A stretch of DNA of 22,344 nucleotides from a virus. The translations under genes and the position numbers were made by a program. Shown here piece by piece: positions 4,332 to 15,891 of the stretch; position 1 is the stretch's first letter; each line of letters opens with the position of its first letter. The DNA is taken from the IMG/VR virus record IMGVR_UViG_3300020152_000057, positions 1 through 22,344 of that record; one strand, 5' to 3'. Below the pieces are notes generated by a model. The model made no database searches and had not been told where the DNA came from. It was given only the letters and a program-made list of their open reading frames with translations.

Positions 4332-4621
4332 GCGACAGCGTTCTGACGATTTCCGTGCAAACGGGCGAAGGCGGTGCGGTTTACGAGGCGTCGATCGACC
4401 TCGGTGAAGCCAATACGCCGCGCTTTGCCGGCCAGATGGTCGAGGCGCTGCTGGCCAAGGTCGGCAAGCACGTACGGGCGATCACCGCCGCCGCTGCCCC
4501 TCACCCGGCCGCTGGCGCGGCCACCCTCTCCCCGGAGGGGCGAGGGGAAGAAGGCGCGGCCGCCCCCTCCACCAGCTTCGCTGGTTCCCCTCCCCCGCTT
4601 CGCAGGGGAGGACCCCAGTGA
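4328..4621 (+). CDS. small hypothetical protein with a repeat-derived C-terminus
   Basis: The GTG at 4328 overlaps the previous stop, and the TGA at 4619-4621 overlaps the GTG start of the transposase. The first 57 residues or so (to about base 4498) look like a genuine small alpha/beta domain (ISVQTGEGGAVYEASIDLGE). The remaining 40 residues are translated from a palindromic repeat element and read as low-complexity proline, glycine and arginine. The ancestral protein was therefore probably shorter. No known function; similarly sized genes often precede the transposase in alphaproteobacterial Mu-like phages. Confidence 0.6.
   Translation: MSDSVLTISVQTGEGGAVYEASIDLGEANTPRFAGQMVEALLAKVGKHVRAITAAAAPHPAAGAATLSPEGRGEEGAAAPSTSFAGSPPPLRRGGPQ
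4498..4617. repeat. palindromic REP-like element upstream of the transposase
   Basis: There are several nested hairpins: GGCCGC/GCGGCC (4507-4522, loop 4), a CCCTCTCCCC arm against GGGGCGAGGGG (about 4524-4548), ACCAGC/GCTGGT (4571-4585, loop 3) and CCTCCCC/GGGGAGG (4589-4611, loop 9). This wording is typical of dispersed palindromic repeats of alphaproteobacterial chromosomes. It sits in frame within the small gene 4328-4621. Its last arm, GGGGAGGA, lies a few bases before the transposase GTG and probably serves as its ribosome-binding site. Confidence 0.7.
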
Positions 4622-14586: not shown

Positions 14587-14963
14587 CCCACGGCCTGCCG
14601 CTCGTGCTCGAGGAGATTGCCGACGTCGCCGGCGTCGAGGCGATGTGGGCGCTCGTCAGGGCCCGCGGCGGCTCGACCATCTTCCTGCCGCGCCGCGTGA
14701 CGGCCCGGCACTGGCTGGCCGAAGTGGTGGGGCTCGAGGCGGCCAACCGGATCTGCGCGCATTTCCGCTCCAACCACCAGTCGCGCGTCGAGGTGCCGCT
14801 GGCCCACGCCGCGCAGAAGACGGAGCGCTGGCGCGACGAGCTGGCCCAGCCCGGCAGCCTGGCGGAGCGGGCGCTGCGCATGAAGGTGACGGAGCGGACG
14901 GTGCGGAACTGGAAGCGGCGGCTGCGCGGCGATCACGACGAGGACCAGGGCGACCTGTTCTAG
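14583..14963 (+). CDS. mor: Mor family transcription activator
   Basis: The 126-residue protein matches the Mor/C family: a central dimerisation part (GGSTIFLPRRVTARHWLAEV, GLEAANRICAHF) and a C-terminal HTH (AERALRMKVTERTVRNWKRR). In Mu, Mor activates the middle promoter at the end of the early phase. As the last early gene, followed at once by a terminator and the lysis genes, it should activate the downstream promoter. I chose ATG 14583, which overlaps the previous stop; an ATG at 14568 would add five residues. No second activator (C) is visible. Confidence 0.88.
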   Translation: MTHGLPLVLEEIADVAGVEAMWALVRARGGSTIFLPRRVTARHWLAEVVGLEAANRICAHFRSNHQSRVEVPLAHAAQKTERWRDELAQPGSLAERALRMKVTERTVRNWKRRLRGDHDEDQGDLF

Positions 14964-14972
14964 CGTCTCTTG

Positions 14973-15006
14973 CCCCACGCTCTGGCATGCGCCAACCGCT
15001 TTGGGG
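14973..15006 (+). repeat. 34-bp direct repeat, copy 1 (before terminator)
   Basis: This begins CCCCACGCTCTGGCATGCG and ends CCAACCGCTTTGGGG. It is near-identical to 15106-15138, differing by one extra A. Each copy has terminal CCCCA/TGGGG and inner TGGC/GCCA complementarity, so it can fold into an imperfect hairpin. Copy 1 starts nine bases after the mor stop. Confidence 0.85.
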
Positions 15007-15065
15007 TTATGGTGAGCCGGAAACCGTTCCGGGGTTATCGGGATAAGCGGCGACGGCACATTGCA
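15003..15065. promoter_or_regulatory. candidate Mor-dependent promoter/operator elements
   Basis: Between the repeat and the terminator lie two GGGGTTAT words (15003-15010 and 15031-15038), the dyad CCGGAA-ACCG-TTCCGG (15017-15032) and the dyad TTATC-GG-GATAA (15035-15046). Mor-family activators bind dyads just upstream of weak promoters, so these are plausible sites. No clear -10 box is seen, and a promoter here would have to read through the terminator at 15066-15103. Confidence 0.35.
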
Positions 15066-15103
15066 CCCCGCGCAAGCGATTTGCGCAAGGGGGCATTTTT
15101 TTT
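15066..15103 (+). terminator. rho-independent terminator of the early operon
   Basis: The stem CCCCGCGCAA (15066-15075) against TTGCGC-AA-GGGG (15081-15092) has a short loop and is followed by eight T (15096-15103). It lies 100 bases after mor and should end early transcription. Confidence 0.85.
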
Positions 15104-15105
15104 GA

Positions 15106-15138
15106 CCCCACGCTCTGGCTGCGCCAACCGCTTTGGGG
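15106..15138 (+). repeat. 33-bp direct repeat, copy 2 (before lysozyme gene)
   Basis: This copy matches 14973-15006 except for one missing base (CTGGCTGCG versus CTGGCATGCG). Its final GGGG extends into the G-rich ribosome-binding site of the lysozyme gene starting at 15145. Confidence 0.85.
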
Positions 15139-15144
15139 GCCCGC

Positions 15145-15891
15145 ATGAACGCCATCGACACCTTCCGCTCCAAGAGCTCCGGCATCGTCGCCAACCTGCT
15201 CGGCGACTTCCCGATGAACCACCAGGACGCCTTCGCCATCGTCGGCAATGGCGGGCACGAGAGCTACGGCTTCACCGACCTGCAGGAGCTCAAGCCCACG
15301 GTGAAGGGTTCGCGCGGCGGCTGGGGCTGGTACCAGTGGACGGCGGCGCGGCGGCGCGCCTTCGAGGCCTACTGCGCCCGCAACCGGCTCGACCCGGCCA
15401 GCGACGAGGCCAACTACGCCTGGCTGTTCCTGGAACTGAAGGGCGCCGAGGCGAAGGCGCTGCCGCGCACCCTTGCCGCCGACACGCTCGACGACAAGGT
15501 CGAGGCCTTCGAGCGCGCCTATCTGCGGGCCGGCATCAAGCATTACGACAGCCGCAAGCTCTGGGCCAAACTGGCGCAGAAGGAATGGGCCCTCTCCGGC
15601 CGCGAGCCCGCGCCGATGCCCGCCGCGCGCAAGAAGGCCGTTCTCGTCGACGAGGCCGGCGCGACCGAGAAGCGCGCCTCGACCGACATGGCGAACGGGG
15701 CGCGCAGCGGCGGCGGCGGCCTGGTGACGGGCGGCGGCGGGGTGGTGGCGCATGACGCTATCCCCTGGGCCGACCTGCTGCTCTTCGGCCTCGGCGCCGT
15801 GATGGTGGGCGTGGCGGTGTGGCTGATCCTGAGGGCGCGGAAGGGTGCGCGGGTCTCGGCGGCGCTGCTCCACGAAGCGGGGAAGGCGTGA
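15145..15891 (+). CDS. phage lysozyme with C-terminal membrane anchor
   Basis: The 248-residue protein should cleave peptidoglycan at lysis. The N-terminal 150 residues match the phage tail-lysozyme type (Phage_lysozyme2-like): IVGNGGHESYGF with E39 as likely catalytic acid, then GWGWYQWTAARRRAFEAYC at about 59-77. A basic and Gly-rich linker (about 155-205) precedes a single hydrophobic span (WADLLLFGLGAVMVGVAVWLIL, about 207-229) and a short basic tail. No N-terminal signal is seen, so export would depend on the holin or on the tail anchor. ATG 15145 has GGGGG seven bases upstream. It is the first gene after the early terminator and is coupled to the holin gene (TGATG). Confidence 0.85.
   Translation: MNAIDTFRSKSSGIVANLLGDFPMNHQDAFAIVGNGGHESYGFTDLQELKPTVKGSRGGWGWYQWTAARRRAFEAYCARNRLDPASDEANYAWLFLELKGAEAKALPRTLAADTLDDKVEAFERAYLRAGIKHYDSRKLWAKLAQKEWALSGREPAPMPAARKKAVLVDEAGATEKRASTDMANGARSGGGGLVTGGGGVVAHDAIPWADLLLFGLGAVMVGVAVWLILRARKGARVSAALLHEAGKA

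Follow-up and report, generated by a model that had tools for sequence, protein, structure and literature searches.

The window analysed here (22,344 bases) corresponds to a complete IMG/VR virus record and belongs to a Mu-like phage, encoding a MuA-type transposase, GemA and Mu Gp27. The nearest named phages, as judged from the transposase, are Rhodobacter phage RC1 and Rhodovulum phage RS1 (43%). The locus under study extends from the gene of a Mor-like late transcriptional activator to a lysozyme gene (Table 1). Besides its PHROG family, the activator matches gp51 of POA1180 by tblastn and the Pfam family Mor weakly (E 0.023). Between the two genes lie two short repeats, in like orientation and 99 bp apart. 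A sequence-only reading of this DNA had described them as a near-identical pair differing by one base, which brackets dyads and a terminator just after mor and just before the lysozyme gene and whose second copy reaches the lysozyme ribosome-binding region. This description could be confirmed, with the refinement that the difference is a 1-nt indel (an extra A in copy 1) and not a substitution, so that all 33 shared bases are identical. A chance match with up to three mismatches within the window was obtained in 0 of 100 shuffles. Further GC-rich palindromic stretches, of a type common among dispersed repeats, are present in the window just upstream of the transposase gene (4495-4615; CCCTCACCC...CTCTCCCC...GAGGGG).

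Table 1. Features of the interval between the activator and lysozyme genes (positions in the window).
Feature	Position	Strand	Details
Late transcriptional activator (Mor-like), 131 aa	14568-14963	+	PHROG 836, E 7.9e-26
Repeat copy 1	14973-15006	+	34 nt, CCCCACGCTCTGGCATGCGCCAACCGCTTTGGGG; model match 14969-15011; missing in relative L004
Predicted Mor-type activator site	15017-15032	+	perfect 16-bp dyad CCGGAA-ACCG-TTCCGG (5-bp arms CCGGA-AACCGT-TCCGG), centre 15024.5
Dyad TTATC-GG-GATAA	15035-15046		between predicted activator site and -10
Predicted -10 hexamer CACATT	15057-15062	+	GGCACATT kept in L004 and POA1180
Bulged stem-loop, intrinsic-terminator-like	15062-15103	+	TGCACCCCGCGCAA-gcgat-TTGCGCAAGGGGGCA + T8; stem 15062-15095
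Repeat copy 2	15106-15138	+	33 nt; model match 15102-15143; orthologous copy in L004
Weak Shine-Dalgarno of lysozyme, GGGGG	15135-15139	+	provided by copy 2, predicted paired inside copy 2
Lysozyme (Phage_lysozyme2), 248 aa	15145-15891	+	ATG 15145; Pfam PF18013, E 1e-15

The distribution of the element was analysed by pattern scans of IMG/VR, followed by a covariance model built from eight copies and a second model built from 12 copies. The exact 33-mer has no match in IMG/VR, and most matches to two relaxed patterns were due to chance and fell within genes. True copies were identified by the pattern scans in L031/L051, L032, L041, L027 and L064, beside unrelated genes. The covariance model unveiled 13-14 copies in seven virus records, in both orientations and located between genes as well as in frame within genes. 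These matches score 28-60 bits and are distributed over the window (two), the L004 record (three), L031 (four), L032, L041, L027 and L064. With the eight-copy model, L031 gained three additional, diverged copies and the L004 record two, all of which were confirmed by the 12-copy model. A control scan of 5.9 Mb of alphaproteobacterial plasmid DNA yielded one weak match (E 0.04). Named phages and plasmids gave only weak matches (E 0.3-10) and no convincing copy, and no relatives were found via the lysozyme. Azospirillum and Sinorhizobium plasmids were rejected as carriers, since whole-plasmid scans gave no real copy. An intergenic stretch of the Escherichia coli plasmid pS142-3 (L095, 1497-1537) matches the element model with 21.5 bits (E 0.006), probably by chance. 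According to the sequence-only reading, many copies across the host chromosome would mark the element as a dispersed repeat; essentially such a repeat was found, by way of copies in other phages.

The copies share an architecture of outer stem, GC pair step, internal loop and inner stem. In single folds, seven of eight copies adopt this structure as the best fold or nearly so, the exception being L041. Across 12 copies, 96% of the stem cells are paired and six of the 11 pairs are changed on both sides, where cells count sequences rather than events and L027 stands for one event; none of 500 shuffles was paired as well. In L027, the whole outer stem is flipped from CCCC/GGGG to GGGG/CCCC, and in four copies a UA pair of the inner stem is replaced by CG. 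GU occurs at the terminal pair only, so that the pairing holds on both DNA strands. The flipped-stem copy of L027 (1743-1786) is located just 5' of a reverse-transcriptase-like ORF that resembles, by eye, a diversity-generating retroelement. A known RNA family was rejected as the identity of the element: comparison with Rfam gave nothing up to E 5 for 14940-15200, and no match in six sources reached the gathering score.

The conserved internal loop and the compensatory stem changes would also agree with a selected RNA leader motif, in which CCCC pairs with the GGGG Shine-Dalgarno and represses translation and which spreads because it is regulatory. Consistent with this idea, the Shine-Dalgarno is predicted to be paired in the window and in L004, and copies in the window, L004, L031a and L041 are placed before start codons. 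However, at least four or five copies lie within ORFs and others are antisense to neighbouring genes, and the lack of an Rfam match and the equal pairing on both DNA strands likewise speak against an RNA leader, which we consider quite improbable.

The element occurs in frame in an 899-aa helicase/methyltransferase-like ORF of L064, twice in a tail ORF of L031 and in the transposase of the L004 phage, the linker of which forms an occupied/empty contrast with that of the window transposase. Copies that are reversed relative to the genes were found in L031 (1577), L032 and the L004 record (15451). Comparison of L031 and the L004 record revealed two pairs of occupied and empty sites, which are to be read with caution on the junctions of L031, as this sequence looks rearranged. 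At one site, the tail ORF of L031 reads ...HPDNSAPAPASADRLGSQPAPAEQ and that of the L004 record ...HPDNAPAPAEQ, a 39-bp in-frame difference. The other is a spacer with CGACCAATC-[about 46 bp]-GACGAAGAGG in L031 and CGACCAATC-GAAGAAGAGG in the L004 record. No target-site duplication, which is a MITE criterion, was seen at these two L031 sites in comparison with the L004 record.

Such insertion polymorphisms bear on the possibility that the pair in the window arose by simple local duplication from copy 2 and that the element itself is not mobile. The complete identity of the shared bases, the common orientation and the close spacing of the two copies would be accounted for in this way, but the mobility of the element is evident from the polymorphisms elsewhere, and the 5' flank of copy 1, TCTTG, agrees with that of the L064 copy but not with that of copy 2 (five bases only). 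A purely local duplication is therefore rather unlikely, and a mobile element is preferred; copy 1 may still have arisen from copy 2 by recombination.

The relative age of the two copies can be estimated from the closest relative, the viral contig bearing L004, which encodes an activator 56% identical to that of the window and a closely similar lysozyme. Its mor-lysozyme interval retains the 40-nt block upstream of copy 2 (GGCACATTGCACC...GCGATTTGCGCAAGGGG) and contains a single element copy directly 5' of the lysozyme ATG, which spans the ribosome-binding site and has most of its 33 bases in common with copy 2. No counterpart of copy 1 is present in this interval. Judged by this comparison, copy 2 predates copy 1, which is peculiar to the window, because L004 has a counterpart of the former and none of the latter.

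A true regulatory pair, for example twin sites for the activator or paired RNA elements with an effect on the terminator, would explain a control region bracketed by two near-identical copies. It would fit with the retention of copy 2 and its 5' block in L004, and with the finding that copies in L004 and L031 often lie just upstream of a start codon and supply a GGGG ribosome-binding stretch. Yet L004 has copy 2 only, other mor-lysis regions are without the element (none with E < 0.1 in nine mor-bearing relatives, 12-copy model), and elsewhere copies sit inside genes and in reverse orientation. This makes a regulatory pair very improbable. The sequence-only reading had suggested that the copies could be a twin Mor-binding site or, more generally, a duplicated phage control site. 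Both proposals had to be abandoned on these grounds: the element recurs at unrelated loci of other phages, L004 keeps the control block with one copy, and the dyad that fits Mor has another sequence and lies between the copies.

Dispersal, both orientations, in-frame insertion within genes, occupied versus empty sites and maintained stem pairing are all documented by these sequence comparisons. The best explanation of the element is a new family of mobile palindromic repeats, which resembles two known types and fits the definition of neither. REPs are short, imperfect hairpins with a conserved internal loop that are dispersed in both orientations. The element is similar in length, forms a hairpin with an internal loop and is found in both orientations, but several copies lie inside genes and are thus not extragenic, no GTAG-type foot was seen, and no Y1 (REP-associated, RAYT-like) transposase (PF01797) is encoded in the seven element-bearing records. 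Rickettsia palindromic elements (RPE) are palindromic repeats of Rickettsia, about 150 bp long in the review cited, that occur between genes and in frame within genes, with occupied and empty sites between relatives (PMC10969869). The element is likewise palindromic, dispersed and in frame in protein genes; it differs from RPE (100-150 bp) in being phage-borne and only 39-46 bp long in the occupied/empty comparison, and is set apart by description. Copies 1 and 2 would accordingly represent two separate insertions, or one insertion and a subsequent duplication, of a mobile palindromic repeat that is about 40 bp long and forms a hairpin. The older copy 2 would have been co-opted, or merely tolerated, as the lysozyme ribosome-binding region, and copy 1 would be a later arrival between mor and the late promoter.

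We infer that functional control resides between the copies and not in the copies themselves. An activator-dependent promoter is predicted there from the sequence, composed of the 16-bp dyad, the -10 hexamer and a start at the first purine within the usual distance, about 15070. The prediction is based on a dyad/-10 spacing shared with relatives and on the layout of Mu Pm. In the window, the dyad centre lies 32.5 nt upstream of CACATT, and in eight mor-lysis intervals (window, L004, POA1180, L019, L020, L022, L024 and L025) it is separated by 31.5-33.5 nt from the weak -10-like pattern xACRKT, the L004 dyad having one mismatched pair and the L024 arms 5 bp (both read by eye). Taken singly, the spacings would turn up in 0.4-1.8% of shuffles (seven intervals tested), figures that are optimistic because the pattern was written after viewing these intervals. 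The combination of dyad and xACRKT is unique in the window on both strands; perfect dyads of such size are common (5 per kb). No such dyad arrangement was found in Rhodovulum phage RS1. A scan for sigma70 promoters (-35/-10) gave no match, and a sigma54-type site over GGCAC... was discarded by inspection because of its unfit spacing. L004 retains part of the TTATC-GG-GATAA dyad (GGTTATCGGG).

The Mu promoter Pm lacks a -35 and carries a 16-bp dyad, made up of two 5-bp arms, with its centre at -43.5 (PMC4390567). The window resembles it in having a 16-bp dyad about 44 bp upstream of the predicted start, a -10, no -35 and an activator gene just upstream, whereas the sequences of dyad and -10 are unlike those of Mu, the region feeds the lysis gene directly, and start and activator binding are predictions only. 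A Mor-like activator would bind the dyad and start late transcription from the -10 hexamer. The sequence-only reading had also considered an RNA switch that lets transcription enter the late genes. Its choice of place holds, as late/lysis transcription is probably entered between mor and lysozyme, where a switch by RNA structure is also plausible; the duplicated element drops out as the control site.

The stem-loop downstream of the -10 has the GC-rich stem (-19.2 to -19.4 kcal/mol) and U run of an intrinsic terminator; a simple terminator scan did not list it, probably because of its bulges. Since the predicted start is located within the 5' arm, the whole terminator would fold in read-through early RNA and end it ahead of the lysozyme gene, and activator-driven RNA, lacking the CCCC arm (15066-15069, opposite GGGG at 15089-15092), would pass. 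In RNA begun at 15070, a 6-bp hairpin is all that remains, and it lies far away from the U run (-8.7 kcal/mol versus -19.2 for the whole). In the window alone, the pairing of the spacer to downstream sequence is not significant, 10% of shuffles being as good. The terminator is not conserved, as L004 has a weaker hairpin without a T run.

A comparable arrangement has been described for T4 gene e, where the long early RNA forms an inhibitory structure and the late RNA escapes, its promoter being situated in the part that encodes the 5' strand (PMC3014915). The predicted late start of the window lies similarly inside the 5' strand of an inhibitory hairpin, which is here a terminator, whereas hiding of the Shine-Dalgarno as in T4 is predicted in L019, L020, L022 and L024. 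In these phages, the sequence from the -10 on folds into a strong hairpin (-16 to -20 kcal/mol), which masks the endolysin Shine-Dalgarno and no longer forms without the first 13 nt; its single-sequence significance is modest (shuffle fractions 0.02-0.31). The hairpin follows the activator gene (4396-4550 in L020), extends from the predicted -10 to the Shine-Dalgarno and would hide the latter only in read-through RNA. From these folding models we infer a switch by a start inside a hairpin, and the related phages seem to conceal the Shine-Dalgarno of their lysis gene in the manner of T4 gene e.

Two mobile-repeat copies flanking a Mor-driven late promoter with its start inside a terminator are, as a whole, the probable explanation of the locus. 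A wider proposal can be advanced only tentatively. It combines an undescribed phage-borne mobile palindrome of about 40 bp, spreading through unrelated phages and into genes, with a general lysis-timing device shared by PHROG 836 phages: late transcripts would begin within the 5' arm of a hairpin, and only in read-through early RNA would this hairpin block the lysis gene, by termination or Shine-Dalgarno hiding. If true, a very short mobile palindrome that is tolerated by genes and moves among phages would be added to those already known, and the compact genomes of phages make its insertions easy to recognise. The start-inside-hairpin layout, which parallels T4 gene e with a terminator in the window phage, would provide a simple rule, open to testing, by which Mu-like phages silence their lysis genes until the late activator acts.
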